64,000 bases of DNA, from the NCBI RefSeq assembly GCF_000469135.2, contig NZ_CP048117.1, positions 2,827,501-2,891,500 of the forward strand, read 5' to 3'. Below are positions 11,251-61,591 of the stretch, one piece after another (the first letter of the stretch is position 1; the number at the start of each line of letters is the position of its first letter). The position numbers and the translations under genes were made by a program. The stretch comes from Bacillus sp. SB49. GTDB taxonomy: Bacteria > Bacillota > Bacilli > Bacillales > Halobacillaceae. Below the pieces are notes generated by a model. It was not told the origin of the DNA and did not search any database. It worked only from the letters and a program-made list of their open reading frames with translations.

Positions 11251-11280
11251 AAGAAAAGACGATTCGATAAACGAATCGCC
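11251..11280 (-). terminator. terminator after glcF, end of the muramic-acid operon
   Basis: On the minus strand GCGATTCG pairs with CGAATCGT around a short loop, followed by CTTTTCTT. It ends the long leftward transcription unit that begins at 20077-20105. Confidence 0.8.
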
Positions 11281-11286
11281 TTTAAA

Positions 11287-12579
11287 CTATTTCGGGAGCG
11301 GATCCGCTTCCATCAGCAGATCGACGATGTGAACCGAATCCATCACCCCACTCTTTCCTTCCCTTTCGACACCAAGCTTCATCTGCAGGAGGCAGCCTGG
11401 GTTGGACGTTATGATCCTGTCCGGCCCCGTCTGACAAACGTCCTTCATTTTAACATCCAGGATATCCATCGCCTCTTCATAGTTGACAATGTTATATACC
11501 CCCGCAGATCCGCAGCAGAACTCTGGTCGATCCAGCTCTTTTAAGGTAAGCCCCGGAATACGCTTTAAGAGATCGATGGGTTTGTTCGTCACCTTCTGAA
11601 CATTTCTCAAATGACAGGATGGCTGATAAGTAACTGCCACATCCAACGACTTATTAAAGATAAGGCCGTCCATCTCCACCAATACTTCCGATATGTCTTT
11701 CACCCGATGTGTAAATTGGAGAGCCCGCTTGTGCCATGTTGTTCCTTCTTCAAAAAGAGTGGCATATTCGATTAAACGTGCTCCGCAGCCTCCTGCATTA
11801 TTCACAATATAATCGAAGTTCTCTTCCTCAAATGCTTCTATATTTCTCTTGGCCAGCTCCGTCGCCTCTTCCTTTTTTCCGGAGTGACCATGAAGGGCCC
11901 CACAGCACGTCTGCTGCTCAGGAATAACGATCTCTGCTCCACTTCGCAGGAGCAGTTCGAGCGTATTTTCATTGGATTCAAAAAAAACGCTGTCCATGAT
12001 ACATCCTCTAAAAAACCCAACCTTAGCCTTAGCCGGGCGCATCCTTACATAGCGATTCGCTCTCTGCTTACGCAGTTTCGGCGGCGGCATGGCCGGGAGC
12101 ACCGATTCCATCTGTCCAAGCGGCTCGGAAATACGCTTAAGGAGCCCGAAATGACCAGCTGCTTTCTGTGTCCCCGTCTTCTGATAGAGCCACGCCGCAT
12201 TTCCCAGGAAATCCATCCACTTCGAGGAAGGAAAAAACTCCTTGTATAAGAAGCTTTCCATCCATCTTTGCGGGCGGGGCTTTCCTGTTTCTTCTTCCAT
12301 GAACGTCTTTGCACTTTCCAAAAGCTCTCCGTACTGGACGTTAGTGGGACAGACGACTGTACAGGCCATACAGCCAAGGCATTTCTCAATCGGTTCTTTC
12401 AATTCCTCTACTGCCGCTTTTCCTTCTGCCACCATTTTAATCAGATTGATCCTTCCCCTTGGCGAGTGCGTTTCTTTCTCCATCGTTTCATATGTCGGAC
12501 AGGCTGGGAGGCAATAGCCGCACTGGACACAATCAATGGTCCTGTCATAGGACAACCTTTCTTTCAATTGTTCACTCAT
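11287..12579 (-). CDS. glcF: GlcF-type iron-sulfur subunit of a (D-)2-hydroxyacid oxidase
   Basis: A 430-residue protein with two 4Fe-4S motifs: CVQCGYCLPACP at residues 18-29 and CLGCMACTVVCP near 68-79. Two CCG domains follow, with CCGALHGHSG near residue 225 and CCGSAGVYN near 360, as in GlcF and LutA-like subunits. It passes electrons from the flavin subunit to the membrane quinone pool. Its ATG overlaps the end of glcD, so both are coupled. The family is annotated as glycolate oxidase, but its place after murQ suggests D-lactate as substrate. No GlcE subunit is present, as is usual in Bacillus YsfC/YsfD pairs. Confidence 0.9.
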   Translation of the reverse strand: MSEQLKERLSYDRTIDCVQCGYCLPACPTYETMEKETHSPRGRINLIKMVAEGKAAVEELKEPIEKCLGCMACTVVCPTNVQYGELLESAKTFMEEETGKPRPQRWMESFLYKEFFPSSKWMDFLGNAAWLYQKTGTQKAAGHFGLLKRISEPLGQMESVLPAMPPPKLRKQRANRYVRMRPAKAKVGFFRGCIMDSVFFESNENTLELLLRSGAEIVIPEQQTCCGALHGHSGKKEEATELAKRNIEAFEEENFDYIVNNAGGCGARLIEYATLFEEGTTWHKRALQFTHRVKDISEVLVEMDGLIFNKSLDVAVTYQPSCHLRNVQKVTNKPIDLLKRIPGLTLKELDRPEFCCGSAGVYNIVNYEEAMDILDVKMKDVCQTGPDRIITSNPGCLLQMKLGVEREGKSGVMDSVHIVDLLMEADPLPK

Positions 12580-13975
12580 CTGTCAACACCAGCTTCTGAC
12601 CCTTCTCTGGAAAGATCTTTCCCGGGTTAAGAATTCCATTCGGGTCCCAACTGTCCTTGATGCGTTTCATCATCCCAAGACCGACTGCTCCGAGCTCTGC
12701 CTCCATGAAGGGAGCTTTCATCGTGCCTATCCCGTGTTCTCCTGACAATGTACCTCCGAGTTCCAGTGCAGCTTCAAACATGGCTTCCACTGCAGCTTCT
12801 GCACGCTTCATCTCTTCCTTATCCCTTTTGTCACATAGTACATTTGGGTGGAGGTTTCCATCTCCTGCATGTCCGAATGCGACAACTTCGACTTGATATT
12901 TTTCTTTTATTGTATGTAACCGGTCGATGAAGTCAGGAATTTTGCTTCTGGGAACGGTAGCGTCTTCCGAGACTTTGGTCGGTTTGATTTTGGCGATTGC
13001 AGGGGATACTTGTTTTCTTGCGTGCCAGATGGCAGCTGCTTCCTCTTCGGTTTTAGGGATGATGATTTCCACAGCACCGACATCCAGCATGATTTCTTCG
13101 ACAAGCCCGCGTTCCACCCGAAGCGTTTCCGGATGACCGTCAAGCTCAATGATGACGATAGCAGCATCATCGACGGGAAGACCGACAGGCTGGAAGTTCT
13201 CGACAGCGACGATACAGGCCTGGTCCATAAATTCCATCTTAGCTGGTAGAATCCCGGAAGTGAGCGTCCGTGAAATCGCCTCTCCTGCTTTCCTCACCTC
13301 TTGGAATGCGACCATCATCGTTTGTACAGCTTTCGGTTTCGGCATCAGCTTCAAGGTCGCTCCGACAATGACCGCAAGCGTTCCTTCCGATCCGACTATC
13401 AGCTTCGTAAGATCGAAACCTGTCACGTTCTTAATCGTCCGGCCACCGGTTCTGATTATTTCCCCCTCCGGTGTCACTACTTCAAGGCCGAGAACGTGAT
13501 CCTTCGTCACACCATACTTCAAGCCCCGGGGCCCGCCGGAATTCTCCGCAAGGTTGCCGCCGATTGTCGCAACATGAGCACTGCTTGGATCAGGAGCGTA
13601 CATTAAACCATGCTCCGCAGCCTCCGCATTAATATCCACGGTCTTCACACTCGGCGTAACGTCTACAGTCAAATCATAAGGCTGCATTTCGATCACCGCA
13701 GGCCATTGGGACATATCAAGAACGATTCCTCCATAGACAGGAAGAGGACCGCCACTCAGACAAGTACCCGATCCCCTTGGATAAACCGGTACACGACAGC
13801 GGTTCGCCACCTTCAAGACAGCTGCTACTTCCTCTTTCTTCTTCACCTGGACGACGGCTTCGGGCATATATTCACCGAAGGATGCGTCAAAACTGTAGCT
13901 GTAACGATCGGCGGCCGATGTGAGAATTCTTTCTTCCGGCAGAATCTGCTGGAGTTCCCTCAACCAATCTTTCAT
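12572..13975 (-). CDS. glcD: GlcD-type FAD-linked oxidase, probable D-lactate or glycolate dehydrogenase
   Basis: A 467-residue flavoprotein. The FAD-binding type 4 domain covers about 35-215, with YPRGSGTCLSGG, DPSSAHVATIGGNLAENSGG and GLEVVTPEGEIIRTGG. The C-terminal FAD-oxidase domain ends with the conserved VVAFGHAGDGNLHPN and GEHGIGTMKAPFM. It oxidises a 2-hydroxyacid to a 2-oxoacid with GlcF. The start at 13975 is chosen because GGGAGG lies nine bases upstream; the in-frame TTG at 13984 abuts that site. The gene follows the murR-like regulator by 18 bases in the same operon as murQ, whose product is D-lactate, so D-lactate oxidation is the likely job here (inference). Confidence 0.9.
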   Translation of the reverse strand: MKDWLRELQQILPEERILTSAADRYSYSFDASFGEYMPEAVVQVKKKEEVAAVLKVANRCRVPVYPRGSGTCLSGGPLPVYGGIVLDMSQWPAVIEMQPYDLTVDVTPSVKTVDINAEAAEHGLMYAPDPSSAHVATIGGNLAENSGGPRGLKYGVTKDHVLGLEVVTPEGEIIRTGGRTIKNVTGFDLTKLIVGSEGTLAVIVGATLKLMPKPKAVQTMMVAFQEVRKAGEAISRTLTSGILPAKMEFMDQACIVAVENFQPVGLPVDDAAIVIIELDGHPETLRVERGLVEEIMLDVGAVEIIIPKTEEEAAAIWHARKQVSPAIAKIKPTKVSEDATVPRSKIPDFIDRLHTIKEKYQVEVVAFGHAGDGNLHPNVLCDKRDKEEMKRAEAAVEAMFEAALELGGTLSGEHGIGTMKAPFMEAELGAVGLGMMKRIKDSWDPNGILNPGKIFPEKGQKLVLTDE

Positions 13976-13993
13976 TCTATCCAACCTCCCTGG

Positions 13994-14905
13994 TCATTGC
14001 TTCATAGATTTGACGTTTTTCAGAGACGGCTTTCCTTTCAAATCATTAATGACTTCGGTTATTTCCTCAAAGTAATCCGATGCTTCTCCCCATTGTTCTG
14101 TGACAAGATTGACAAAAAGAATATCGATCATGTGGAGCTGGGCAAGCCGCGAGGATGTAGCACCGCTGCGGAAAGGTGCTGGAATCTCTCTAGAGGCGGA
14201 TATATACAGCGAAACATCCGCACAGGCTGTAACCGGAGACTGTCCATATCTTGTGAGGCTGATCGTTTTGGCTCCTTTTCGTTTAGCAATTTCCATAACT
14301 TTGGCTGTTTCGTATGTCTCCCCGGAGAAGGAAATACCGAAAACCACATCCCGGTCAGAAACGTTCGCGATGTTCATGGCAGCATTATGTAAATCGTTGA
14401 ATGCCGAAGTAGCCTTATTCATGCGCATGAACTTCTGTTGGGCATCCTGAGCAATAATGCCCGACGCGCCAACACCGAAAAAATGAATTCTCTCGGCATT
14501 TTTCAAAAACTTGATGGCTTCAGACAGGGTCTTGTAATCGACCAGCTCGGTGGTTTCCTTAATTGCCTGCACACTGTTGTTAGTTACTTTCTCTACAATT
14601 AAATCCGAAGGCTCTCCGGGCTGAATATCCCGGTACTGTTCCTCTGGTTTCTTCTGCAGGTCACCGGAGATTCGAAGTTTCAATTCCTGAAGCCCCTTTA
14701 AACCAAGTGATTTGCAGAGGCGGATGACAGCCGCGCTGCTTGTTGAACTCAACTCCCCGAGCTGAGACGCTGTGCAGTGTATCGCTTCATGCGGCTGATC
14801 CAGAATGAAGCCCGCAATTTTTCTTTCTGAAGGAGGTAATTTATCCTTCATTTCTTTAAGCATGACTAGACCGCCTGTAAGCGAAGCTTTCATGATCATC
14901 ACCAC
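13994..14905 (-). CDS. murR: MurR/RpiR-family transcriptional regulator
   Basis: A 303-residue regulator with an N-terminal RpiR HTH domain (about 15-90: LPPSERKIAGFILDQP, TASQLGELSSTSSAAVIRLCKSLG) and a C-terminal SIS sugar-phosphate domain (about 130-265: IHFFGVGASGIIAQDAQQK and ISFSGETYETAK). In E. coli MurR represses muramic-acid genes until MurNAc-6-phosphate binds. Here the gene is inside the operon with murQ and the kinase, so autoregulation with a MurNAc-6-phosphate inducer is likely. The start is uncertain: GTG codons at 14905 and 14902 and ATGs at 14899 and 14893 all follow AAAGGA. Confidence 0.85.
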   Translation of the reverse strand: MVMIMKASLTGGLVMLKEMKDKLPPSERKIAGFILDQPHEAIHCTASQLGELSSTSSAAVIRLCKSLGLKGLQELKLRISGDLQKKPEEQYRDIQPGEPSDLIVEKVTNNSVQAIKETTELVDYKTLSEAIKFLKNAERIHFFGVGASGIIAQDAQQKFMRMNKATSAFNDLHNAAMNIANVSDRDVVFGISFSGETYETAKVMEIAKRKGAKTISLTRYGQSPVTACADVSLYISASREIPAPFRSGATSSRLAQLHMIDILFVNLVTEQWGEASDYFEEITEVINDLKGKPSLKNVKSMKQ

Positions 14906-14907
14906 TC

Positions 14908-15744
14908 TTATCCTTTAATAGCTCCTTCCGTCATCCCTTTCACAATCCGGCGTTGGAAAATCGCATAAAGAACGATGACCGGAATGATAGCGATGACGAG
15001 ACTCGCAAATAATGTTCCCCAGGCATTGGTATACTGGGTTTCGTTACTAATAAAGTCAATAGCCAGTGCCAATGTATAGTTTTCTTCTGTCTGGAGAAAA
15101 ATCAATGCCATAAAATATTCATTCCAGAACTGAATCATATTCATAATCGTTACGGTAATAATTCCGGTAGTAGACAACGGCGTGATCACTTTCCACAAGA
15201 CACCGTAAGGAGACATCCCGTCGATAGCTGCCGCTTCTTCCAATGATTTTGGGATCGTGGCCATGAAACTCGTAAGTACGAAAATGCTGAATGGCAGTTG
15301 GCTGACAGCATAGACAATGCTCAATCCGAAGATGTTATCAAGCAGATTCAGCTGCATGAGCAGGAAAAACAACGGAATCCATCCGAGTACCATTGGGATC
15401 ATCATCGCAGAAATGTATAAAGTAAACAAGACACGGTTCCCACGGAAAACCATCCGTTCGAGCGCATAAGATGTCGGAATCGCCATCATTAACGTAAGCG
15501 TCGCTCCAAGCCCTGTGACAAGGAAGCTGTTGAATACGCTTGTATCTATATTATAGTTACTCCAGGCGTCCACGAAGTTGGAAAACGAGAAGCTCTCCGG
15601 AATCCCCCATGGATTTCGGTATATCTCCGCATTCGACTTGAACGCACCAAGAATCATCCAGAAAATCGGATACAGAACGGCCAAGGACCAGATGATCAGT
15701 GGGACACGGACGATCGTCCGTGAGAAAAAACTGCCTTTGTGCAC
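14908..15744 (-). CDS. sugar ABC transporter permease (MalG/CUT1 type)
   Basis: A 278-residue protein with six predicted membrane segments. The EAA motif reads LEEAAAIDGMSPYGVLWKVITP near residue 175 (written here as 20 of its residues: EAAAIDGMSPYGVLWKVITP). It starts with GTG preceded by GGAGGGGAATACC. It pairs with the permease encoded 19 bases upstream and the lipoprotein further up to import a carbohydrate, probably MurNAc or a muropeptide-derived sugar by context. It overlaps or abuts the murR start. Confidence 0.9.
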   Translation of the reverse strand: MHKGSFFSRTIVRVPLIIWSLAVLYPIFWMILGAFKSNAEIYRNPWGIPESFSFSNFVDAWSNYNIDTSVFNSFLVTGLGATLTLMMAIPTSYALERMVFRGNRVLFTLYISAMMIPMVLGWIPLFFLLMQLNLLDNIFGLSIVYAVSQLPFSIFVLTSFMATIPKSLEEAAAIDGMSPYGVLWKVITPLSTTGIITVTIMNMIQFWNEYFMALIFLQTEENYTLALAIDFISNETQYTNAWGTLFASLVIAIIPVIVLYAIFQRRIVKGMTEGAIKG

Positions 15745-15763
15745 GGTATTCCCCTCCTGTCGT

Positions 15764-16657
15764 TTAATACTCTACTTTCTCCCGCCTCATAAAAAACTGC
15801 AGGATAAGTACCGTCACGAGGGACAGAATCAATATCATTACCCCGATTGTAGCCCCGTAACCGAAATTGTATTTGACGAATGCCTGCTCATATAAATAGG
15901 ACCCCATCACATGTGTCGAATTGTTCGGCCCACCCTGGGTCATGACCTGGACGATGATGAAGGAGCCGTTCAATGTTGTGATAATGATATAAAGGATCGA
16001 AATTTTGATCTGTGGCCATATAAGCGGAAGCGTTACTTTCCAAAATTGCTGCCACTCGGTCGCACCGTCTATCTCCGCCGCTTCATAGTAGCTCTTCGAA
16101 ATGTTCGAAATTCCTCCCATGAGCATAAGCATGAACAAGCCGATACCGGCCCATATCGACGGCAGTACCAGACTCGGCAGAGCCCAGTCTTCACTTCCAA
16201 GCCATGGACGCTGCAGGCTTTCAAGACCGATAAATTCAAGCCCCGAGTTTACCAAACCAAGGCTTGGGTTGTAGATGAACATCCAGAGAATACCGATAAC
16301 AACGACGGACATAATATTTGGGAAGAAAAATACGATCCGATAAAATGGTGCTTCTTTAATTTTCAACTGAGTCAACGCAACCGCGAAGAACGTCGCTAGT
16401 ACCATGATGCCGATTACCTTCGTAACGACGAGGAAATAATCATGGAGGATCGTATCAGGGATAATTCCATCACTGAACAACCGGCGATAATTATCAAAGC
16501 CGACAAATTCAGCAATCGAAGAGGAACCTGACCATTTAAATAATGAATAATAAAGCCCGTTGAACAAGGGATAAAGGGTGAAAACCGCAAACAAAAGAAA
16601 CGTCGGAACAAGGCAGAACGCCAAAAACAAATATCTCTGCCGCTTCGACTGGACCAT
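15764..16657 (-). CDS. sugar ABC transporter permease (MalF/CUT1 type)
   Basis: A 297-residue permease with six membrane helices; the EAA loop is YYEAAEIDGATEWQQFWKVT near residue 205. The start at 16657 (MVQSKRQRYLF) follows GGTGGGAAGG. A longer frame from 16735 would add 26 residues overlapping an upstream hairpin and is unlikely. Along with the next gene it forms the heterodimeric channel. No ATP-binding gene is in the operon, which is normal for Gram-positive CUT1 importers that share an MsmX-type ATPase encoded elsewhere. Confidence 0.9.
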   Translation of the reverse strand: MVQSKRQRYLFLAFCLVPTFLLFAVFTLYPLFNGLYYSLFKWSGSSSIAEFVGFDNYRRLFSDGIIPDTILHDYFLVVTKVIGIMVLATFFAVALTQLKIKEAPFYRIVFFFPNIMSVVVIGILWMFIYNPSLGLVNSGLEFIGLESLQRPWLGSEDWALPSLVLPSIWAGIGLFMLMLMGGISNISKSYYEAAEIDGATEWQQFWKVTLPLIWPQIKISILYIIITTLNGSFIIVQVMTQGGPNNSTHVMGSYLYEQAFVKYNFGYGATIGVMILILSLVTVLILQFFMRREKVEY

Positions 16658-16703
16658 CCTTCCCACCTCTTTCTCTTTCAGATTCTTTCTTGGACAAAGG
16701 AAG

Positions 16704-16740
16704 AAAAAGGGAATGCAGAAGAGTGAATCCTCCACATTCC
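16704..16740 (-). terminator. intra-operon hairpin after the sugar-binding protein gene
   Basis: On the minus strand GGAATG pairs with CATTCC, with inner GGAG and CTCT pairing, followed by CTTTTTCTTCC. It sits between the binding-protein gene and the permease genes. A leaky terminator or 3'-end stabiliser here would give more binding protein than permease, a common arrangement. Confidence 0.6.
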
Positions 16741-16750
16741 GCTGATATTC

Positions 16751-18115
16751 CTACTCGAGACTCTTACGATATTCCGCAGCTGCTTTTTCTGCTTCCTCCA
16801 CGAATTCTTCCGCAGTAATATTACCCAGCATGAGAGAGACCAGCGAATTACTTACAGGCGTTTCCAATTCAGAGCTCATCGGATGCGGTTTCTGATAGAT
16901 TTGAACCTGCTCCGGATCGTTGATCATCTCGTTCGCTTCAATAAGGAACGGCGGGACTTCCTCACTGGAAGAAAGGTCGACTCCCTGAAGGTTCATAATT
17001 GCACCGGTATGCTCAGAAAAGCTCTTCGCATATTCCTTCGTATACACGAACTCAACGAACGCTTTGGCAGCTTCCGGATTTTCGGCCTTCTCTGCGATCG
17101 CCAGTGGGCGAAGATCCGGTACGATCGCATATGGTTCACCCTCTGCCTGCATTGGAGATGGAATAAATCCGTATTCGAAATCTTCCGGTGTATCATTGGC
17201 CATTTCATTCGGCAGCCAGAAACCAACCGGGATAAATGCATTATCATGGAGAAGGAAGTTCATTTGGGACTGTGTATGATTGAGAGCACCAAATCCAGGA
17301 TCGATCAGCCCATCCTTCTGCATCTGCTCCACATTCTTCATCACTTCCAGCACCGGCTCACTCGTCCACGCACCTTCTTTACCTGTGATGACATCCGTCA
17401 ATAGTTCATCCCCACCGGCTGCACCGAATGCCGGGTAAAGGACACCACGAAGGAAATAATATGGATATTGGCCGGTTGTAACGAACGGTGCGATATCCTC
17501 TTCGTCCTTGATCGTCTTCATCGTTTCCATAAAGCCGGGGAAATCTTTCGGAACATCCCAGCCTTTTTCTTCAAACCAAGCATTGTCATACCACGTTCCC
17601 CATGTATCGAAGACTAATGGAAGGCTGTAAATATCGCCGTCATAGTCAGCCGGGTCGACGATAAAGCTTTCGTTCAGCTTGGAACCGTCTTCCAACTCTA
17701 TACCGCTCACCCATTCCGACAAATTCATCAACTGCCCGTCTTCCACCATTTGTGTTTCACTGGAACCGGCACCGTCAATATAAACGACATCAGGCGGATC
17801 GTCGGATACCCAGCGTGATCTCATTTCTTCGTTAATGTTCGGACCGGCATGTTCTGTAATGGTCACATCCGGATATTCTTCCTGAAAATCAGCAATCACT
17901 TCTTTCCACCACGAATCCCCGTAACCCCCGACAAAATACTGGATTTCCAGCTCACCGGAAATTTCTCCGGATGAACTTTCCTCTCCTGAACCATCTCCTG
18001 AGTCCTCCTCGCTCGACTCATCTGATCCTGCCCCCGGAGCACAACCAGCCAGCACCACGAATACAAACAGAATACCTATCATCCACCAAGATGAAACGTT
18101 CCGCCACTTGTTCAA
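16751..18115 (-). CDS. sugar ABC transporter substrate-binding lipoprotein
   Basis: A 454-residue family 1 solute-binding protein. The signal MNKWRNVSSWWMIGILFVFV leads to lipobox LAGC (Cys25), followed by a Glu/Asp/Ser/Gly linker. The mature part has the family features DPPDVVYIDGAG, LPLVFDTWGTWYDNAWFEEK and FIPVGFWLPNEMA; the last resembles NgcE-type N-acetylglucosamine or chitobiose binders, which would fit an amino-sugar substrate. The TTG start follows AAAGGGGGAGC. It lies 57 bases after murQ. Substrate identity (MurNAc, GlcNAc-MurNAc or GlcNAc) is inferred from the operon. Confidence 0.88.
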   Translation of the reverse strand: MNKWRNVSSWWMIGILFVFVVLAGCAPGAGSDESSEEDSGDGSGEESSSGEISGELEIQYFVGGYGDSWWKEVIADFQEEYPDVTITEHAGPNINEEMRSRWVSDDPPDVVYIDGAGSSETQMVEDGQLMNLSEWVSGIELEDGSKLNESFIVDPADYDGDIYSLPLVFDTWGTWYDNAWFEEKGWDVPKDFPGFMETMKTIKDEEDIAPFVTTGQYPYYFLRGVLYPAFGAAGGDELLTDVITGKEGAWTSEPVLEVMKNVEQMQKDGLIDPGFGALNHTQSQMNFLLHDNAFIPVGFWLPNEMANDTPEDFEYGFIPSPMQAEGEPYAIVPDLRPLAIAEKAENPEAAKAFVEFVYTKEYAKSFSEHTGAIMNLQGVDLSSSEEVPPFLIEANEMINDPEQVQIYQKPHPMSSELETPVSNSLVSLMLGNITAEEFVEEAEKAAAEYRKSLE

Positions 18116-18148
18116 AGCAAAGCTCCCCCTTTGTTTTGGTCATTTATT

Positions 18149-18165
18149 TGAAACCATTGAATGGT
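18149..18165. repeat. inverted repeat between murQ and the sugar-binding protein gene
   Basis: AAACCAT and ATGGTTT are perfect arms around TGA. No T run follows on either strand, so it is not a terminator. It could be a protein-binding site (for example for the RpiR regulator) or an mRNA hairpin. Confidence 0.4.
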
Positions 18166-18172
18166 TTGCAAA

Positions 18173-19078
18173 TCAACTGTTCGTTTCCAGCGCTTCCCTC
18201 AGCTGCCCCTCATGAGCCGCGAGCAATGTTTGTGCTTCTTCATAAGAAACAGACTTTAAAAGCATTAAAATAGCCGGTTTCACCTGCATATCCGCTTGTT
18301 CCAAAGCAGATTCCGCCTCTTCATACTTCGTCTTCGTGCTTTCCATCAAAATGCTTTTCGCGCGTTCACGGAGTTTATGGTTGCTTGCGTGGACGTCGAC
18401 CATCAAGTTCTCATAGACTTTGCCAAGTTTCACCATACTGACGGTACTGAGCATATTAAGCACCATTTTATGAGCGGATGCTGATTTCAACCGCGTCGAA
18501 CCAGTCAATACTTCCGGTCCGACGATGACTTCGATCGGACAATCCGCGAAGGTGCTGATTTCTGATGCTTCATTACAAGAAAGTGAAACCGTAAATGCAC
18601 CGATACGGCGGGCCTCCTTCAGAGCACCAATAGGATAAGGCGTCCTGCCGCTTGCTGTGATGCCGACAACCACGTCCATCGGGGAGACTTTCTTCTTCTG
18701 TAAATCCTCTTCTCCTTGTCGTTCATCGTCCTCAGAGTTTTCTTTCGCCTTAAGAAAAGCTTCCCCACCGCCTGCCATGACCGCCTGGACCATATCGTAG
18801 TCCACTTGAAATGTCGGTGGACATTCAGAAGCATCCAAAACGCCAAGGCGGCCGCTTGTACCTGCCCCTACATAAAAAAGACGTCCCCCACGCTTCAAGG
18901 CTTCCGCAATCCGATCTACTGCTTTCGTTATCTGTGGCAGCACCTGCCTTACAGCGGATGCCACTTTCTGATCTTCATCATTCATCACCGTAAGGATTTC
19001 TGCGGTTGTCATACGATCGAGTTCTCTTGTTCGCTCATTTCTCTGTTCCGTCGTCAAAGATGCCAAGGAATCTGTCAT
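18173..19078 (-). CDS. murQ: N-acetylmuramic acid 6-phosphate etherase
   Basis: A 301-residue SIS-domain lyase. It cleaves the lactyl ether of MurNAc-6-phosphate, giving GlcNAc-6-phosphate and D-lactate in the cytosol. The signature YVGAGTSGRLGVLDASECPP lies at residues 69-88, with Glu85 in the position of the catalytic acid. A second motif VGITASGRTPYPIGAL and the GPEVLTGSTRLKSASAHK segment are also typical. The C-terminal helical part (EEAESALEQADMQVKPAILM) matches the family. The start overlaps the kinase stop by four bases. Length and all motifs are intact. Confidence 0.96.
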   Translation of the reverse strand: MTDSLASLTTEQRNERTRELDRMTTAEILTVMNDEDQKVASAVRQVLPQITKAVDRIAEALKRGGRLFYVGAGTSGRLGVLDASECPPTFQVDYDMVQAVMAGGGEAFLKAKENSEDDERQGEEDLQKKKVSPMDVVVGITASGRTPYPIGALKEARRIGAFTVSLSCNEASEISTFADCPIEVIVGPEVLTGSTRLKSASAHKMVLNMLSTVSMVKLGKVYENLMVDVHASNHKLRERAKSILMESTKTKYEEAESALEQADMQVKPAILMLLKSVSYEEAQTLLAAHEGQLREALETNS

Positions 19079-20046
19079 CTATTCTCCCCCTCCTTTATTA
19101 CCAAGGACGGTTGAGCCAGTAAAGCCGCCCCAAATTCCGGAGGCCCGTATGCTTCCACATGCCTGCCCCATCCTCGTTCCTCCATTTGTCTGATGAAGTA
19201 TTTCTTCAATACATGGGAATGAGTGAAAATTGATCCAGCCGTCACGACTGCCGGTATCGTGTTAAATCCTTTACGTCTTATAGAGTAGAGATGAAGCAGC
19301 AATTCCTCCGCAGCTGTATGCAAAATGCGTGTTGCCGTGCTGTCCCCCGTCTCCGAGGCTGCAATAACACATTCTGCAACACCGGCGATTGTCTGCTTTT
19401 CCATTCGAGTTCCCTCATGGATAAACCGGATCAGCTGTTCCGGTTTATCCAACTGCCACTTTTCCAGAAGCAGTTCTGTCAGAATGGTTTCCCCTCTTCG
19501 TCCATCTGCCGCCTTCGTCACTTCTGATAACGCTTTCAAAGATATGTAATATCCACTTCCTTCATCACCAAGGATATGCCCCCAGCCGCCGCACCGATGC
19601 AGCCTGTGGTCCGGAGCAATTCCGATGGCGCTTGAACCAGTCCCTGAAATGACAAGAATACCCGACTCCTCGTGCGGTGGTAGTGCACCTCTTAAAGCCG
19701 CATGACTGTCCGATCCGATAAACAAGTGGCAATTTTCAGAAAAAATTTGATTTGAAAATTTTTTTTGGGCTATTGCCTTCATTTGCTGCTTATCTTCTGC
19801 TCTTCCGACTCCCGCAAGACCGACTCCCACTCCTGCAACTTCCTTTGGATCAATGCTGAATTGCTCCATACCTTCCGAAATTAAAGACTGAATCCGGCCC
19901 CACGCCTTTTCAAAGCCAATGATATGTGGATTCGTTCCAGGTCCTACCACTACCATAGGATCCGGAGAGCTGGTTGTTTTCCCTGCTTCCATAAATAGAC
20001 ACGCCGTTTTCGTTCCTCCTCCGTCTATTCCAATTACATATTCCAT
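19075..20046 (-). CDS. murK: BadF/BadG-type ATPase, probable MurNAc/GlcNAc kinase
   Basis: A 323-residue ASKHA-fold kinase of the BadF/BadG/BcrA family. Phosphate-1 motif IGIDGGGTKT lies at residues 5-14; phosphate-2 ILVISGTGSSAIGIA near 130; GGWGHILGDEGSGYYI near 152-167; adenosine motif AVVTAGSIF near 275. Clostridial MurK of this family phosphorylates both MurNAc and GlcNAc at O-6. Being first in an operon with murQ makes that function likely here, and it would be needed because the importer is an ABC type that does not phosphorylate its sugar. The family also includes GlcNAc-only and glucosamine kinases. Confidence 0.85.
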   Translation of the reverse strand: MEYVIGIDGGGTKTACLFMEAGKTTSSPDPMVVVGPGTNPHIIGFEKAWGRIQSLISEGMEQFSIDPKEVAGVGVGLAGVGRAEDKQQMKAIAQKKFSNQIFSENCHLFIGSDSHAALRGALPPHEESGILVISGTGSSAIGIAPDHRLHRCGGWGHILGDEGSGYYISLKALSEVTKAADGRRGETILTELLLEKWQLDKPEQLIRFIHEGTRMEKQTIAGVAECVIAASETGDSTATRILHTAAEELLLHLYSIRRKGFNTIPAVVTAGSIFTHSHVLKKYFIRQMEERGWGRHVEAYGPPEFGAALLAQPSLVIKEGENR

Positions 20047-20076
20047 AGACGACCTCCAATGGGAATGATTGACTAT

Positions 20077-20105
20077 ATTATAGATTTATTGAATTTTTAT
20101 GTCAA
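20077..20105 (-). promoter_or_regulatory. consensus sigma-A promoter of the muramic-acid operon
   Basis: On the minus strand TTGACA (20100-20105) and TATAAT (20077-20082) are separated by exactly 17 bases. Both hexamers match consensus perfectly. The start site would be near 20070, about 24 bases before the murK ATG. Such a strong promoter needs tight repression, fitting an RpiR repressor. Confidence 0.88.
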
Positions 20106-20150
20106 TATACCTTTTTATATTCCGTTATTTTATTTCAAAAATAACAAAGC

Positions 20151-20180
20151 AAAAAGCCGGGGAACTCGAATTCCCCGGCT
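20151..20180 (-). terminator. terminator after the YkvI-like gene
   Basis: AGCCGGGGAA and TTCCCCGGCT form a 10-bp stem with a short loop, followed by TTTTTGC on the minus strand. It insulates the muramic-acid promoter from upstream transcription. Confidence 0.9.
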
Positions 20181-21502: not shown

Positions 21503-22753
21503 ATGAAACATTCGACACGTCAGCACCACCCCTATAAAGATATGTTGGATTCTCCAGAGGGGATGGCGGATCAAATTGCCGACAATCTTGGCTGTCCCGT
21601 GACTATCGAAGATGCAAACCATCACATTGTTTCCTACAGCAAGCATGAGTCCAACGTCGACGATGCGCGAACGGCTACGATTATGCGGCGTAAAGTTCCA
21701 GAGCATGTTGTCAACGGGCTTTGGAAACACGGAATCATGTCCCAGCTGTTCGAAAGCGGCGAACCTATTATTGTCGACAGTATAGACTCTATTGGGCTAG
21801 GTAATCGACTGGCTGTGTCTGTTCGCAACAACAAGGAAATCCTTGGTTTCATTTGGGCACAGACAGATAAGGTCACCGTAACGACGGATCATTTGTCCAC
21901 TATTCGCGAAGCAGCTCAAATGGTAGCCCAGCACCTCCAGCGCCAGCAGGCGAAGAAGCAGAAATCCGAAGAAAACGAAAAAGAATTCTTCTGGCAGTTA
22001 TTGACCGGAGCCGCCACCAATTCAGAGGATATTCATAAACAGGCAAAGCGGTTTGGCCTTCATTTGTACGGTCAGCTTTGTGTTGCGGTCTTTGAATTTA
22101 CAGAAGACACGAGCCAGTCCGTCGAGCGTCATGCCTATTATTTATCGGAGACACTGCAGCAGACAAAGATTATCAGCCGTATATTTGATGACCGCCAGCT
22201 CATCCTGCTTGTGAGAACCGACAACTTAGAAGATGCGAACAAAATGAGCCAGGCCTTCATTCGTGAATTCACACAAAAGATGAAGGAAAGGCTTGGATTT
22301 GAAGATTTAAAAGGTGCTTTCGGACTGGTCTATGATAATCCACAGTCTATTAAGGACAGTTATAAACAAGCGTTGAAGGTATTGGAGCTGAAAGAGCAGT
22401 TTCCTGTGAAACTCGCTGAGGTCGATAACTATCAGGATCTCGGTATTTATCAATTCATTAACGAACTCGCCTCCTTACAGAAGCGGGAAAACTATAAAAA
22501 TGATTCCTTGATGAGATTGAAGGCTTACGACGAACAAAACCGTTCTTCCCTATTGGAAACATTAAAGGTCTTTCTCGAGATGAACAGCAATGTTCACAAA
22601 GCCGCTTCCCACATGCACATACACACAAACACGCTGAATTACCGCTTGAAACGGATCCGGGAAATTGGCCATATCGATTTTAAGGATACCAACCAGAAGA
22701 CGATGCTTTATTTAGATTTGTTGATACAGGAAAGCGAAAGAGAGGATTTGTGA
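21503..22753 (+). CDS. adeR: PucR/CdaR-family activator, AdeR type, of alanine dehydrogenase
   Basis: A 416-residue regulator. The N-terminal part (about 15-140: [40 protein letters not shown]) is a GAF-like sensor, the middle a GGDEF-like CdaR domain, and the C-terminus the PucR HTH (about 345-410: [34 protein letters not shown]). In B. subtilis AdeR activates ald; here ald starts 106 bases downstream on the same strand. AGAAGGAGAACGGCT precedes the ATG. The last codons lie within the terminator hairpin. Confidence 0.88.
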
Positions 22754-22782
22754 TTTTTCACAAATCCTCTCTTTCATTTTTT
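22736..22782 (+). terminator. terminator overlapping the adeR 3' end
   Basis: GAAAGAGAGGATTTGTG (22736-22752) and CACAAATCCTCTCTTTC (22759-22775) form a perfect 17-bp stem with a 6-base loop, followed by ATTTTTTC. The 5' arm encodes the last residues of adeR. Confidence 0.92.
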
Positions 22783-22859
22783 CACTTTCCCCTAAACAAA
22801 AAAATAGTCAGACGAGATATACTTTTCTTACATTCGATTACGAAAGGTGGACCTATCCC

Positions 22860-23990
22860 ATGATTATCGGTATTCCAAAAGAAATTAAAAACAACGAGAA
22901 CCGCGTAGCCATCACTCCATCCGGTGTTATTCACCTGCTGAAAGCCGGGCACAAAGTGTTGATCGAGACAGAAGCTGGACTTGGCAGCAACTTCACGGAC
23001 GAAGAATATATTGCATCCGGAGCAACCATTATTGAAAGCGCTTCATCCGTTTGGGAGCAGGCCGAGATGGTAATGAAGGTGAAAGAACCACTACCTGCAG
23101 AATATGGATATTTCCGCAAAGGGTTGATCCTTTTCACCTACCTTCACCTCGCTGCTGAGCCGGGCTTAACAAAAGCATTGGTGGATAACGAAGTGACAGC
23201 AATCGCTTATGAAACGGTAAGTGCAGATAATAAGCTTCCATTGCTTACTCCAATGAGTGAAGTAGCCGGACGTATGGCTACACAAGTAGGCGCACAGTAC
23301 TTAGAAAAATCTTTCGGCGGTAAAGGAATTCTATTGAGTGGGGTGCCGGGTGTATCCCGCGGGAATGTCGTGATCATCGGAGGCGGTATCGTCGGAACAA
23401 ACGCGGCGAAAATCGCAGTCGGTCTCGGTGCACACGTAACCATTCTTGATTTAAACCCTACTCGTCTCCGTGAATTGGATGATCAGTTCGGGGGAGATGT
23501 CCAGACGTTAATGTCGAATCCTTTCAATATCGCGGAATCAGTTAAAAATGCGGATCTAGTAATTGGCGCGGTTTTGATTCCTGGAGCGAAAGCACCGAAA
23601 CTCGTAACCGAGGACATGGTGAAGGAAATGAAAGCAGGCTCTGTTATCGTTGACGTCGCCATCGACCAGGGTGGTAACTTTGAAACAGTCGATCATATCA
23701 CGACACATGATGAGCCAATCTATGAGAAACATGGCGTCCTCCATTATGCTGTCGCAAACATCCCTGGAGCTGTTCCACGTACGTCCACCATCGCCCTTAC
23801 AAACGTGACGATTCCTTATGCGGTCCAAATCGCATCGAAGGGTGTCGTGAAAGCAGTAGAAGAAAATACAGCCATCGAGCACGGCTTAAATACAGCGAAC
23901 GGCCACTTGACTTATGAAGCAGTAGCAAACGATCTCGGTTATGAATATAAACCGGCTCGTGAAGCCATTCGTCAAACCATAGAAGCCTGA
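22860..23990 (+). CDS. ald: alanine dehydrogenase
   Basis: A 376-residue NAD-dependent L-alanine dehydrogenase, interconverting L-alanine with pyruvate and ammonium. Known active-site residues are in register: Lys75 in MKVKEP and His96 in YLHLAAE. The nucleotide-binding fold follows with [17 protein letters not shown] near 170-186. The N-terminus [17 protein letters not shown] is almost invariant in the family. AGGTGG precedes the ATG. The promoter region has TATACT but no good -35, consistent with activation by AdeR. Ald supports growth on alanine and, in bacilli, sporulation. Confidence 0.98.
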
Positions 23991-25481: not shown

Positions 25482-27632
25482 CTACAAAGCGGAGCGCTGT
25501 TCCGGGATCGCCTTTTCCTTTTTAGAACTGGTAATAAGTAGAAGCGCCAGAGCAGCGACCCCCATGATGTCTGTTACAATACCCGGATAGATAAGAAGTA
25601 ATGCTCCTATACCAGCGACTGCTCGCAGCCAGAACGGCACTCTTTGTCTGAAATGACCTTCCGTCATGACAGAAAGAAGGAACACTCCGGCTAACGATGT
25701 AATCGTAATTAAAAGAATATTTCCTGCCGTTGCGTCAATCATCAGCATTTCATGAGAGAATACGAACATAAACGGGACAATGAATCCAGCAATCGCCAGT
25801 TTCATAGCCTGGAACCCGGTTTTGTTCGGATTTCCTCCTGCGATTCCGGCTCCAGCAAAGGCAGCAAGGGCAACCGGCGGCGTAATATTCGCAAAGATCC
25901 CGAAATAAAAAACGAACATGTGGGCGACAAACGTAGCTGTTTCCGGAGATCCCGCCAATTCCCGATACAATGGAAGCTGAAGCAGGATTGGTGCTGCCAT
26001 CGTACTTGTAATAATATAGGTTGGAATACTTGGAAGCCCCATTCCCAGGACAATGGATGTAATCATCGTAAGGACCAAGGTTATCAGCAATTGGATAAGC
26101 GGACTGTTCACGGCGCTTCCGATACTGACAATGCTGTTGGCAATCTCAAGCGCCACACCGGTGAGGGACGCAATACCCACCACAATTCCTACGGCTCCAC
26201 ATGCAATGGCTACCGGAACAGTGGTCTTCGCTCCATCTTCCAGAGCCTTCAGGCAATCGATGATGGTGACTTCATCGCCTTCGATCTTCAGCCACTTTCT
26301 CCAAAGATTTATAACGAGCGGGACAGCAAGAATGAGAAGCAGCTCCCACCAGTCTCCCCGTACGTTCGGCATAGACCCGCCTGATAGGAGAGCAGACAGC
26401 TGAGGCTGAAAAATCAAGAACAGCGATACTCCAAGGATAACCGGAATCATCCGCTTCGATCCCGCAATGACAACCGTTGCAATAATGGACCAGAATGCTG
26501 CATAAAACGGTGTTTTCCCTGAGAAAAGGAGATACAGCAGTGTCAACATCGGAACAATTAAATGACCTCTTTCTGCCAGCACGGCTCGTAATGAAGGAAG
26601 TTCACTTTTAGGGATTCCTTTCAACCCTCGTTTCGATGCACGGAAATGGACTTGCAGCAGGATGCCGACATAAAACAGAAGGGCTGGTATGATTCCCGCC
26701 AAAATGATTTTTGTATAGGCGACATTCAAGTTTTCGGCCATAATAAAGGCCGCTGCACCCATGATCGGCGGCAGAATCTGCCCGCCCACACTTGCTGCCG
26801 ACTCTACTGCCCCGGCAAAATCTTTTTTATAACCAATCTTCTTCATCAAAGGAATGGTGAACGTTCCGGTCGTTACAACGTTCGCTATGGCAGAACCGTT
26901 GATCGAACCAAGAAACCCGCTTGCAATGACCGCTACTTTCGCGGGGCCTCCCTTCGTATGTCCCGCTACAGCTAGTGCCAGATCATTAAATAACTGTCCC
27001 ATGCCGGACCGACCAAGGAACGCTCCGAACAAAATGAACAGAATAATGTAACTGGCAGATACACCAACGGCTGTACCCAGTACCCCCTCCGTTATGAAGA
27101 TCAGCTGAGAAATGATTTGTTTCGCAACGCTTTGAATGACGACAGGATTCCATTCTGGATACACGGACAGCTTGACGTAAAAGCCATAAATGAGAAAACC
27201 CAGCCCCAAAAGCGAAAGCCCCCACCCTGTCACCCTTCTTGTTATATCAAACAAAAGCAGGAGGATCAGGATTCCGACATAGAAATCAACGTCGTTAATT
27301 TGGCCGCCTGTTTGAATAATGCGCTCGGCTGTCATCAACATATATACTGCTACAAATAAAGACAATCCAGCCGTTATGTAATCATAGAATGGAATCCCTC
27401 TGCTCCCTTTCTTCTTGATGAATGGATACATCAGAAACCCTAATGTCATCAACGTGTATAAATGAATGCTCCTCTGTTTAATATCTACCAGAGACCCTGC
27501 ATAAGACGTATATAAATGAAAAATAGATAAAGCGACAGCCAATACAGATACCGTCAAAGCGATCGGTTTGGCAATGGCACTCCTCGTCGTACTTTCTCTA
27601 TCGAAATTCCCATCTACTTCCTGCTTGTTCAT
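25482..27632 (-). CDS. TRAP transporter permease, fused DctQ-DctM type
   Basis: A 716-residue membrane protein with about 18 hydrophobic segments. The first about 170 residues carry the four-helix small subunit (DctQ role) and the rest the 12-helix DctM part. Hallmarks include GMGQLFNDLALAVAGHTKGG, ASGFLGSINGSAIANVVTTG, ASVGGQILPPIMGAAAF and MGLPSIPTYIITSTMAAPIL. Fused permeases of this kind work with TAXI-type binding proteins, and one is encoded upstream with a DUF1850 protein. Uptake is driven by Na+ or H+ rather than ATP. The ATG at 27632 has AGAGGTG six bases upstream. The substrate may be a dicarboxylate or glutamate; this is not certain. Confidence 0.93.
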   Translation of the reverse strand: MNKQEVDGNFDRESTTRSAIAKPIALTVSVLAVALSIFHLYTSYAGSLVDIKQRSIHLYTLMTLGFLMYPFIKKKGSRGIPFYDYITAGLSLFVAVYMLMTAERIIQTGGQINDVDFYVGILILLLLFDITRRVTGWGLSLLGLGFLIYGFYVKLSVYPEWNPVVIQSVAKQIISQLIFITEGVLGTAVGVSASYIILFILFGAFLGRSGMGQLFNDLALAVAGHTKGGPAKVAVIASGFLGSINGSAIANVVTTGTFTIPLMKKIGYKKDFAGAVESAASVGGQILPPIMGAAAFIMAENLNVAYTKIILAGIIPALLFYVGILLQVHFRASKRGLKGIPKSELPSLRAVLAERGHLIVPMLTLLYLLFSGKTPFYAAFWSIIATVVIAGSKRMIPVILGVSLFLIFQPQLSALLSGGSMPNVRGDWWELLLILAVPLVINLWRKWLKIEGDEVTIIDCLKALEDGAKTTVPVAIACGAVGIVVGIASLTGVALEIANSIVSIGSAVNSPLIQLLITLVLTMITSIVLGMGLPSIPTYIITSTMAAPILLQLPLYRELAGSPETATFVAHMFVFYFGIFANITPPVALAAFAGAGIAGGNPNKTGFQAMKLAIAGFIVPFMFVFSHEMLMIDATAGNILLITITSLAGVFLLSVMTEGHFRQRVPFWLRAVAGIGALLLIYPGIVTDIMGVAALALLLITSSKKEKAIPEQRSAL

Positions 27633-27647
27633 GATTTTCACCTCTAC

Positions 27648-28163
27648 TTATTTAATAGTATTTCGAACGAGCATGGACAAGAGGGAGATCTCATTCCCTG
27701 CTATCTTAAAGGCTTCCCCCGACGCTAAGTCCAACTGCTCCCGGTTTCCTATGCGCAGACCATGGTTGGTTCGATCCCCCGTCCGGACGATCAGTTGTTC
27801 TCCAATGTTTCGGGAGATCCCTTCCATGTAGACCCAGCCGTCCTTCACATATGTCTCTGTACCAATATCATTGGGCACACCCGCCCCGAAGGTTTTAAAC
27901 CTTGTATTAATCAATCGGATTTTATCCTGTTCCATGAGAAACGTCTCTTCCCAATCTTCATTTTCTACGGAATGTGTCCACCGGATGGACAGCTCCGTGC
28001 CATCCTTTATAAAAAAACACTCCTCCATGCTTTCCGAAGAAACGGTAAGCGTATGGACTTGTAATGTCAGAAGAAGAAAACAGACAGCAGCGACATTTAC
28101 TGCTCGGACATATCCGGTCATCGATGGAAAAAAGGGCACCCTGTTGATGCCCTTCCCCTTCAC
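27648..28163 (-). CDS. DUF1850 protein of the TAXI-TRAP operon
   Basis: A 171-residue protein with one N-terminal membrane segment (AVNVAAVCFLLLTLQVH, about residues 21-37) and an outside domain. The domain has the features of DUF1850: LSIRWTHSVENEDWEETFL near 60-78 and FGAGVPNDIGTE near 92-103. DUF1850 genes lie next to TAXI TRAP transporter genes in many bacteria, as here between the binding protein and permease genes. Their role is unknown; docking or assembly of the importer is a guess. It overlaps the binding-protein stop by four bases. Confidence 0.78.
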   Translation of the reverse strand: MKGKGINRVPFFPSMTGYVRAVNVAAVCFLLLTLQVHTLTVSSESMEECFFIKDGTELSIRWTHSVENEDWEETFLMEQDKIRLINTRFKTFGAGVPNDIGTETYVKDGWVYMEGISRNIGEQLIVRTGDRTNHGLRIGNREQLDLASGEAFKIAGNEISLLSMLVRNTIK

Positions 28164-29149
28164 TCCAGAATGCCTTCTTCTTCATAGAATTTTTTCGCCC
28201 CAGGATGAAGAGGTGCAATCAAGCCTTTTGCGATTTCTTCACGTTCCAACTGCTTCAGTACACCAATGGACACTTCCTCTGAACCAAGATAGTCGTAGTA
28301 GCGCTTCGTCATATCATAGACGACGTCCTCGCTCAAATCCTTAGAAACGATGATCATGTTCTGGATGCCTACCGTTTCCACTGCGTCAGACAAGTCATAA
28401 ACAGCCTCGTCGCCGGCTTCGATCGTATACGGTTTATAGAAAGGATACTTCTCCATCAATGCATCCGCCGTCGCTCCACTGATTTCGACGAAAGTAATAT
28501 CCGTCTGCTGCATTAAATCAGTGATGTTGCTGTTGGGTACGCCGGACGTAAAGAAGGCAGCATCCAGGTTGCCGTTTTTCATTTCCTGCACACTGTCCGC
28601 ATAGCCGGTATGGGTGACCTTGGATAAGTCATCATAAGTAAGATCGACCGCTTCCAGCACCTTCTTCGCACTTTGCTCTACTCCGGATCCTACCTTACCG
28701 ACACCGACTTTCTTCCCCTTCAAATCTTCAACCGTGGAAATACCGCTGCTTTTCAAAGCCACAATCTGTACCACGTTCGGATACATGCCTGCCATGGCTT
28801 GGACGTCGACGGAATTCCCTTCAAACTGCCCTATTCCTTCTATCGCGTCATAGCCGACATCACTCATGATCGTGGCCATTTGATTCAGGCTGTCCTTGAT
28901 ATTCTGAATGTTAGCCACAGATGCTCCTGTGGATTCGACCGTCACGTTGCTGATTAATTCACTTTCTTCCAGGACAGGCTTTAAAGCACCTCCGATCGGA
29001 TAATAGGAACCCGATGTACCACCTGTGCCAAAGACAATCGATTCCGCACCGTCTCCACCTTCTCCAGAAGCCCCTTCCGATCCCCCGCCGCAAGCAGCAA
29101 GAAGTACCAACGATAAAAACATGACTGCAGACCATATGTATTTCTTCAT
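28160..29149 (-). CDS. TAXI-family TRAP transporter solute-binding lipoprotein
   Basis: A 329-residue binding protein with signal MKKYIWSAVMFLSLVL and lipobox LAAC, then the TAXI-type motif FGTGGTSGSYYPIGGALKPV near residues 40-59. LKGKKVGVGKVGSGVE and the FFTSGVPNSNITDL stretch are also family-typical. It captures the substrate outside and passes it to the fused permease. The ATG at 29149 follows GGAGG; an in-frame TTG one codon earlier is less likely. A cre box lies 37 bases upstream. Confidence 0.93.
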   Translation of the reverse strand: MKKYIWSAVMFLSLVLLAACGGGSEGASGEGGDGAESIVFGTGGTSGSYYPIGGALKPVLEESELISNVTVESTGASVANIQNIKDSLNQMATIMSDVGYDAIEGIGQFEGNSVDVQAMAGMYPNVVQIVALKSSGISTVEDLKGKKVGVGKVGSGVEQSAKKVLEAVDLTYDDLSKVTHTGYADSVQEMKNGNLDAAFFTSGVPNSNITDLMQQTDITFVEISGATADALMEKYPFYKPYTIEAGDEAVYDLSDAVETVGIQNMIIVSKDLSEDVVYDMTKRYYDYLGSEEVSIGVLKQLEREEIAKGLIAPLHPGAKKFYEEEGILE

Positions 29150-29185
29150 CAAACCATCCTCCGTTTCTTAATTTTCTAAAAATTA

Positions 29186-29199
29186 TGATAACGCTTTCA
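29186..29199 (-). promoter_or_regulatory. cre box (CcpA) before the TAXI-TRAP operon
   Basis: TGATAACGCTTTCA matches TGWNANCGNTNWCA at every defined position when read on the plus strand. It lies between the upstream region and the binding-protein start, a repressing position. Confidence 0.75.
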
Positions 29200-29215
29200 T
29201 TCAGGGAAGGGAACC

Positions 29216-29250
29216 TTTTGACCATATTGGACATTTTGGTCTTTTTGGTC
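29216..29250 (-). promoter_or_regulatory. repeated TTTTGGTC/TTTTGACC motif upstream of the TAXI-TRAP operon
   Basis: The plus strand shows TTTTGACC at 29216-29223, TTTTGGTC at 29234-29241 and TTTTGGTC at 29243-29250. Tandem copies upstream of an operon promoter suggest an activator site. The nearby DctR response regulator is the obvious candidate, but this is inference. Confidence 0.4.
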
Positions 29251-29283
29251 ATAAAAATAGACGACTCCTTTTCTGGAATCGCC

Positions 29284-29838: not shown

Positions 29839-29854
29839 ATCATTCTCTCTCCTT

Positions 29855-32127: not shown

Positions 32128-32194
32128 ACATAAGCTCCTTCACTCCATCACTTCTTCTAGTGTATCACTTAAAAGTAAATCTATGGTACACTGT

Positions 32195-32208: not shown

Positions 32209-32223
32209 AGAGGGGGATTCTCA

Positions 32224-61584: not shown

Positions 61585-61591
61585 ACTAAAT

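Follow-up and report, generated by a model that had tools for sequence, protein, structure and literature searches.

Introduction

The N-acetylmuramic acid (MurNAc) 6-phosphate etherase MurQ yields N-acetylglucosamine (GlcNAc) 6-phosphate and D-lactate (PMC5061867), and in the accessible part of the literature on this pathway the fate of the D-lactate is mostly left open. An operon of the salt-loving bacterium Bacillus sp. SB49 raises the question of whether some bacteria keep an oxidase for this D-lactate next to murQ itself. The operon lies in the window, by which we mean the whole stretch of 64,000 nucleotides analysed here (contig NZ_CP048117.1, forward-strand positions 2,827,501 to 2,891,500), and it joins murQ and genes for a kinase, an ATP-binding cassette (ABC) importer and a MurR-type regulator to glcD and glcF, which by annotation fall in the glycolate oxidase family. 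The order of the genes, their repeated recruitment and the promoter sequence suggest an oxidase dedicated to D-lactate. Taken as a whole, and judged by comparative sequence analysis, the locus is likely to be a MurR-type-controlled operon for the complete use of external MurNAc, including the oxidation of D-lactate by GlcDF.

Gene organization of the operon

The gene order is murK-murQ-sbp-permA-permB-murR-glcD-glcF, running from position 20046 down to 11287 of the minus strand, with all eight open reading frames intact. The operon and its ends comprise the following features, in positions of the window.

20077..20105, minus strand: sigma-A promoter, TTGACA-17-TATAAT, 12/12 match; similar promoters in aligned relatives
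19075..20046, minus strand: murK, BadF-type MurNAc/GlcNAc kinase (Pfam PF01869)
18173..19078, minus strand: murQ, MurNAc-6-phosphate etherase, full length (NCBIfam TIGR00274, 417 bits, cut-off 302)
16751..18115, minus strand: sbp, sugar-binding lipoprotein of a CUT1-type ABC importer, NgcE-like (PF01547, SBP_bac_1; TIGR03851)
15764..16735 as called, minus strand: permA, ABC permease (PF00528); the true start is probably the Met at 16657
14908..15744, minus strand: permB, ABC permease (PF00528)
13994..14905, minus strand: murR-type RpiR regulator, HTH_6 and SIS domains (PF01418, PF01380)
12572..13984, minus strand: glcD, flavin adenine dinucleotide (FAD) subunit of a D-2-hydroxyacid dehydrogenase, proposed D-lactate dehydrogenase (PF01565, PF02913)
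11287..12579, minus strand: glcF, iron-sulphur/CCG electron-transfer subunit (PF02754 twice, PF13183)
11255..11283, minus strand: intrinsic terminator after glcF, 12-pair hairpin, centroid -15.4 kcal/mol, z -2.6

This agrees with the initial annotation, whose gene order, gene families, promoter and end terminator were borne out by the intact reading frames, the NCBIfam and Pfam matches, the 12/12 promoter and the 12-pair hairpin. The promoter is the best among the sites listed in 11.5 kb, the other nine listed sites matching at 9/12 positions; the terminator 3' of glcF was seen by folding analysis and is absent from the list of the initial promoter and terminator scan. A hairpin with a T tail at 20155-20180 divides the operon from the upstream gene. 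Within the operon, murK and murQ overlap by 4 nt and glcD and glcF by 8 nt, and the gaps are 57 nt between murQ and sbp, 19 nt between permA and permB, 2 nt between permB and murR and 9 nt between murR and glcD. The gap between sbp and permA is 15 nt as called and 93 nt if permA begins at the Met at 16657. A promoter of its own for glcDF had been named beforehand as a finding that would speak against a shared transcript; the promoter scan found no same-strand promoter-like site of at least 9/12 within murR or the murR-glcD gap.

Linkage of glcD to murQ in the host genus

If GlcDF acts on the product of MurQ, the two genes would be expected to stay together in relatives. MurQ was found in 18 of the 22 genomes of the host genus (own genome included; E 1e-60), and in 13 of these 18 a GlcD gene lies at most 6.3 kb from murQ, start to start. 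The closest named murQ loci, among the best 80 of 136 murQ loci, which were those compared, are from Halobacillus, and the host most likely belongs to that genus. In these neighbourhood comparisons gene names come from BLAST clusters or were given by eye, with nine cluster representatives and one GlcD checked by Pfam, and some species are counted twice among the loci, once from the murQ locus listing and once under a G handle.

The arrangement is not static within the genus. In genome G019 the six-gene mur block has a CorC-like gene on one side and glcDF-DoxX on the other; genome G016, where MurQ has no match, shares both neighbours and has glcDF alone (L131). Two pairs of loci, L119/L131 and L123/window, share their neighbour genes and differ in whether the six-gene mur block is present or absent directly upstream of glcDF. 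In genome G004 a two-component system of the window's kind adjoins a glcDF that has no mur genes next to it, and the mur operon is elsewhere, by nagA- and nagB-like genes. A tree of six concatenated operon proteins rejected a single clade of glcDF-bearing Halobacillus mur blocks (approximately unbiased (AU) test, p 0.00096, framed after the arrangement had been seen), and therefore the joining or separation of glcDF happened more than once.

Linkage beyond the host genus

Among the best 80 of 136 murQ loci, the ABC-type core, defined by a binding protein at least 60% identical, occurs in 24, and in ten of these a glcD match follows the core (nine Halobacillus and Jeotgalibacillus L023). The Jeotgalibacillus operon is the same but for its end, which is a glcDF of another clade, 47/44% identical. 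In six of the 24 loci (L015, L016, L018, L020, L021 and L063) the core is followed by a gene for the exo-muramidase NamZ, which we take Bacillus subtilis YbbC to be; in L022, outside these six, a NamZ gene lies farther from the core. In all four genomes of a sister genus (G035-G038) the ABC operon is divergent, by 49 to 113 bp, from a lone GlcD-family gene, with no glcF in the fetched locus. The one sister-genus GlcD that was compared with solved structures, that of L138, scored 415 bits with LDHD, 231 with LctD and 220 with glycolate oxidase, and the other three group with it in the LDHD clade on the tree described below.

Other importer types are also accompanied by these genes. Clusters with an importer of the phosphotransferase system (PTS) carry glcDF in the orders murP-mupG-murQ-glcD-glcF (L159), murQ-murP-mupG-glcD-glcF (L168) and murQ-murP-mupG-regulator-glcD-glcF (L163), and in the Opp-type clusters L028 and L031 glcD follows murR. 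It had initially been held that known Bacillus MurNAc operons use a PTS importer and have no lactate oxidase. This stands for the B. subtilis operon, for which the accessible part of PMC5061867 lists no such gene, but the PTS-type clusters with glcDF make the contrast too narrow, because the lactate branch accompanies mur clusters of several importer types across Bacillales.

An order-wide search of 219 genomes found MurQ in 140 and GlcD-family genes in 183. Among the matches listed, 87 genomes had both, with murQ and glcD at most 20 kb apart in 31 of them and at most 8 kb apart in 14, against approximately 1.2 and 0.5 expected by chance; the estimate uses start-to-start distances and a single genome size of 4 Mb, and allows for relatedness only through genus and family counts. 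By those counts, again among the matches listed, the 31 linked genomes represent 18 of the 41 genera and 15 of the 25 families. In a tree of 71 GlcD proteins, built by a quick tree search and over-representing linked genes (20 regions were chosen for murQ-glcD nearness), the label for linkage, a distance from murQ of at most 7 kb, requires at least 11 changes, nine of them forced by well supported branches. Three GlcD clades are linked to murQ, two of GlcDF and one of the LDHD type. That the linkage is an accident of lineage was rejected on the three clades, the label changes and the AU test within Halobacillus.

The conserved linkage, its recurrence with other GlcD subfamilies and its excess over chance support the idea that the D-lactate from the MurQ reaction is burnt by GlcDF. 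This had been the central suggestion of the initial annotation, together with the expectation that the linkage would be conserved in relatives, and the comparative evidence speaks for both: glcD adjoins murQ in most murQ-bearing genomes of the genus and does so again in other genera. Oxidation of MurQ-derived D-lactate is in our view the best explanation of GlcDF function and, as far as such comparisons can tell, probably the right one.

Family and substrate of GlcDF

The argument for D-lactate comes from the linkage of the genes, from repeated recruitment and from the logic of the pathway, and not from the sequence of the enzyme itself. GlcD scores 471 bits against the TIGR00387 cut-off of 568 and GlcF 234 bits against the NF008434 cut-off of 333; both are under the NCBIfam cut-offs and are therefore wider family members rather than curated glycolate-oxidase equivalogs. 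Compared with solved structures, the window GlcD is closest to LctD (301 bits), followed by glycolate oxidase (298) and LDHD (244). Like LDHD, LctD and D2HGDH, GlcD is a D-2-hydroxyacid dehydrogenase of the VAO/PCMH family, and the window GlcD keeps all five catalytic residues of LDHD (Arg347, His398, His405, Glu442 and His443; positions as given in the accessible part of PMC10589216 and mapped onto GlcD by motif). The LDHD studied there oxidises D-lactate and is described as having no activity on glycolate (PMC10589216). Pocket residues were also tried as a guide to substrate specificity and were uninformative: the linked and unlinked GlcDs compared have the same ones, so that D-lactate is no more than the predicted substrate. 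The second glcDF of the host genome (L084:5704-13823) follows genes resembling a rocB-type peptidase, gabT, gabD and a D-isomer 2-hydroxyacid dehydrogenase.

Operator-like sequences upstream of mur operons

The promoter of the operon is combined with a tandem palindrome.

20123..20137, minus strand: operator site 1, TGAAATAAAATAACG, predicted MurR site upstream of the -35 box
20090..20105, minus strand: operator site 2, TTGACATAAAAATTCA, predicted, lying over both -35 box and spacer at a distance of 33 bp from site 1; across genera, the spacer is conserved together with the -35 box

The tandem palindrome is found in the aligned promoters of 26 mur operons. Site 1 reads TGAAATAWAATTACA in most Halobacillus. 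In 25 of the 26 promoters it scores at least 11/15 and is placed 16-17 nt upstream of the -35 box; it is weak in L023, L120, L124 and L126. A two-part profile trained on 25 promoters finds the same arrangement before murQ in operons outside the training set (L014, L016, L025, L034, L063, L157 and others), and the PTS-type clusters of Peribacillus, Neobacillus and others have a pair of TGAAATNNNATTTCA-like palindromes, spaced by 33 bp, ahead of murQ. The window operon thus has the RpiR/MurR-type regulator and the conserved operator-like sequence of a murQ operon. RpiR-family proteins bind such palindromes, and MurR is therefore the likely binder; the tandem palindrome is probably the MurR operator.

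We also looked for double palindromes before glcD itself, in 350 bp with spacings of 31-34 for loci and in 400 bp with spacings of 32-34 for genomes. A pair scoring at least 18.7 is upstream of 6 of the 39 glcD genes whose fetched locus also holds murQ (a good part of the 39 sit inside operons, where no operator is expected) and of none of the 30 glcD genes without murQ in the locus. Three of the six (L138, L141 and L161) share a divergent region with murK or murQ and one (L170) with nagA; the pairs before the glcD genes of L162 and L171 may be glcD's own. In murQ-bearing genomes a pair was found before 1 of 20 glcD genes far from murQ, and in genomes without a MurQ match before 0 of 20 glcD genes. 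That glcDF always belongs to the MurR regulon was rejected on this rarity, and from the distribution of the pairs MurR regulation seems to go with physical linkage and not to be universal. In the host genome, the region of the NamZ gene has one weak operator-like match (18.6). A genome-wide operator search of the host was unusable: it gave 79 matches, each palindrome counting on either strand, the reversed pattern gave 48, and site 1 of the window was missed.

A hairpin between sbp and permA

One element of the operon went unmentioned in the initial annotation.

16710..16740, minus strand: terminator-like hairpin in the sbp-permA gap, 13 pairs and a T run, z -3.7

Scripted counting found hairpins in this gap in at least 19 of 37 loci of this operon type (window included, a few species counted twice), a lower bound because the strict pattern missed the window's own hairpin. 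Examples are in L004, L010, L014, L018, L021, L025, L119, L122 and L138; the stem sequences differ, the form is mostly GGAATGT...ACATTCC, and a T run is often present. Judged by its position and form, the hairpin is probably an attenuator or a stabiliser of mRNA and probably lowers rather than ends transcription. With such a hairpin after sbp, equal expression of all eight genes is unlikely. The suggestion of one transcript thus holds for the operon structure, with its short gaps and no promoter-like site of at least 9/12 in murR or the murR-glcD gap, but not for an even level of expression along it.

Kinase, importer and further muramic-acid genes

A route to MurNAc-6-phosphate is present in the operon as the BadF kinase and the ABC importer genes. 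The best solved relative of MurK is a MurNAc/GlcNAc kinase of structure 8ZO3, presumably the Clostridium acetobutylicum MurK, and murQ is the sole match over the TIGR00274 cut-off in the host genome, a single contig of 3.77 Mb. The binding protein scores 234 bits with the NgcE family TIGR03851, under the cut-off of 400, and MurNAc or a small MurNAc sugar is the predicted substrate of the importer. The CUT1 pattern is seen in full, with sbp and two permeases in the operon and an MsmX-type ATPase gene elsewhere: the host genome has one, at 1054227-1055318, 72% identical to a query labelled MsmX by eye. A complete pathway built on an ABC importer had been claimed initially, and the binding protein, both permeases, the kinase, murQ and glcDF are indeed there, but no ATPase gene is in the operon, so that the importer would depend on the shared MsmX-type ATPase, for which the gene elsewhere is the one candidate.

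Away from the mur operon, the host genome has one NagA candidate and one NamZ gene, which adjoins a NagZ-like gene of the GH3 type. An apparent L-lactate lutABC set is found at L188 (read from translations). Next to the mur operon, adeR-ald (alanine dehydrogenase; names given by eye) is found at 21503-23990 of the window and in L004, L006-L012 and L138-L141, on the other strand beyond murK in Halobacillus and convergent beyond murR in the sister genus. Muropeptides contain L-alanine, and adeR-ald may for this reason be a further catabolic branch.

Two further regions of the window were read from translations. At 25482-33240 there is a fused permease of the tripartite ATP-independent periplasmic (TRAP) type with substrate-binding proteins and a CitA/DctB-like two-component system, and at 57300-63937 there are two large secreted proteins that resemble subtilisin and have a repeated motif of cell-wall-binding-like appearance in their C-terminal parts.

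Discussion

In the pathway that we propose, the CUT1-type ABC importer, consisting of the lipoprotein, the two permeases and the shared MsmX-type ATPase, would take up MurNAc or a small MurNAc sugar, which MurK would phosphorylate. MurQ would then split MurNAc-6-phosphate into GlcNAc-6-phosphate, which would go on to NagA, and one D-lactate, and GlcDF, as an FAD/iron-sulphur dehydrogenase, would oxidise the D-lactate to pyruvate and pass the electrons to the respiratory chain. A MurR-family regulator would bind the tandem palindrome over the promoter, and MurNAc-6-phosphate would relieve the repression.

Several observations weigh against this proposal. Five of the 18 murQ-bearing genomes of the host genus are without the linkage (G003, G004, G006, G007 and G018), 14 of the 24 loci with the ABC-type core have no glcD match after it, with at least one contig (L013) ending there, and in Halobacillus karajensis (L007:16630-16757) glcF is down to matches of its first and last residues behind an intact glcD. 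A NamZ gene is near the operon in none of the nine Halobacillus loci, and palindrome pairs are missing before nearly all glcD genes far from murQ. The host genome encodes another GlcDF as well, with a GlcD 75% identical to that of the window. As to the enzyme, GlcD scores LctD and glycolate oxidase near-equally; the hydrophobic subsite B of LDHD (Trp351, Ile407) is absent, the window GlcD having Ser and Asn there; and the residues at these two positions are identical in the compared linked and unlinked GlcDs of the window clade, with no sign of specialisation. Such pocket residues, unchanged by linkage, the near-equal scores and the annotated family would all suit an enzyme that is simply a glycolate oxidase, or a D-2-hydroxyacid dehydrogenase of general use, which joined the operon by chance or for reasons of expression and for which D-lactate is incidental. 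However, glycolate is not a known product of any enzyme in the operon, whereas each sugar cleaved by MurQ gives one D-lactate, and the linkage recurs far above chance in three GlcD clades, one of them LDHD-type; we consider an incidental role quite improbable.

The substrate and purpose of the operon as a whole can be read differently as well. It might serve the recycling of the cell's own wall turnover, or the uptake of a GlcNAc-MurNAc disaccharide or of GlcNAc, rather than growth on external MurNAc, with GlcDF mainly clearing D-lactate. The binding protein is closest to NgcE, a binder of GlcNAc and chitobiose, and the Halobacillus operons have no adjoining NamZ gene. Moreover, the C. acetobutylicum MurK is described as acting on both MurNAc and GlcNAc (PMC10465942), and MurQ as serving recycling in B. 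subtilis and Staphylococcus aureus (PMC5061867). Against this reading, the gene for NamZ, which frees MurNAc outside the cell, follows the same core operon in the six loci named above, and the presence of murQ within the operon means that MurNAc-6-phosphate must be formed. On balance a recycling or GlcNAc-directed operon seems to us rather unlikely. That glcDF has a transcript of its own, or an expression level with no relation to that of the mur genes, which would make the operon physical and not functional, is very unlikely. The terminator-like hairpin after sbp could be taken in this sense, as could two cases of glcDF on its own, one next to the same two-component system in the relative with L123 and one at a different site in G016. 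Nevertheless, only 9 nt separate murR from glcD, murR holds no same-strand promoter-like site, and the sbp-permA hairpins recur across loci upstream of permease genes that must be expressed.

The mur operon of B. subtilis, murQ-murR-murP-amiE-nagZ-ybbC (PMC5061867), resembles that of the window in MurQ, an RpiR-type MurR and MurNAc catabolism, and NamZ and NagZ-like genes are present in the host genome. It differs in having a PTS importer that phosphorylates on uptake, no separate kinase and, as far as it is described there, no lactate oxidase among its six genes, whereas the window operon has an ABC importer, MurK and GlcDF. An ATP-dependent MurNAc kinase that feeds MurQ is known from C. acetobutylicum MurK and from the murT-murK-murQ genes of Tannerella forsythia (PMC10465942); the latter operon has another importer, MurT, and the accessible part of that paper mentions no lactate oxidase for it. 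GlcDF itself resembles the GlcDEF/GlcDF glycolate oxidase, Acetobacterium woodii LctD and mammalian LDHD as an FAD-dependent D-2-hydroxyacid dehydrogenase with an Arg-His-His-Glu-His site and a GlcF partner, and is set apart from them by its place in a muramic-acid operon and its scores under the curated glycolate-oxidase cut-offs. The Dld proteins of Corynebacterium glutamicum and Escherichia coli belong to a different protein family from GlcD, and the E. coli enzyme oxidises D-lactate with quinone. C. glutamicum Dld does the same and is, by the accessible parts of the two sources, unlinked to murQ (PMC3022706, PMC6165865). When engineered C. glutamicum is grown on MurNAc it accumulates lactate, and the authors propose more D-lactate dehydrogenase (Dld) (PMC6165865); the problem that such an operon would solve is therefore, by that account, a real one.

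While murQ operons are known, what appears to be new here, from the comparison of gene clusters, is the variant with a linked GlcDF lactate branch, which recurs across importer types. We found no description of murQ-glcDF linkage in the open-access literature searched, which mostly left subscription papers outside and in which the one paper found to name both murQ and glcD is a review on Synechocystis. If our reading is true, wall debris would be turned into GlcNAc-6-phosphate, pyruvate and respiratory electrons, and many genes now called glycolate oxidase would be reassigned. For the Bacillales at large, we lean slightly towards the view, suggested by the distribution of these genes, that respiratory D-lactate oxidation may be a common and often MurR-controlled second half of muramic-acid catabolism, for which different dehydrogenases would have been recruited repeatedly, and that many 'glycolate oxidases' may in truth be D-lactate dehydrogenases.

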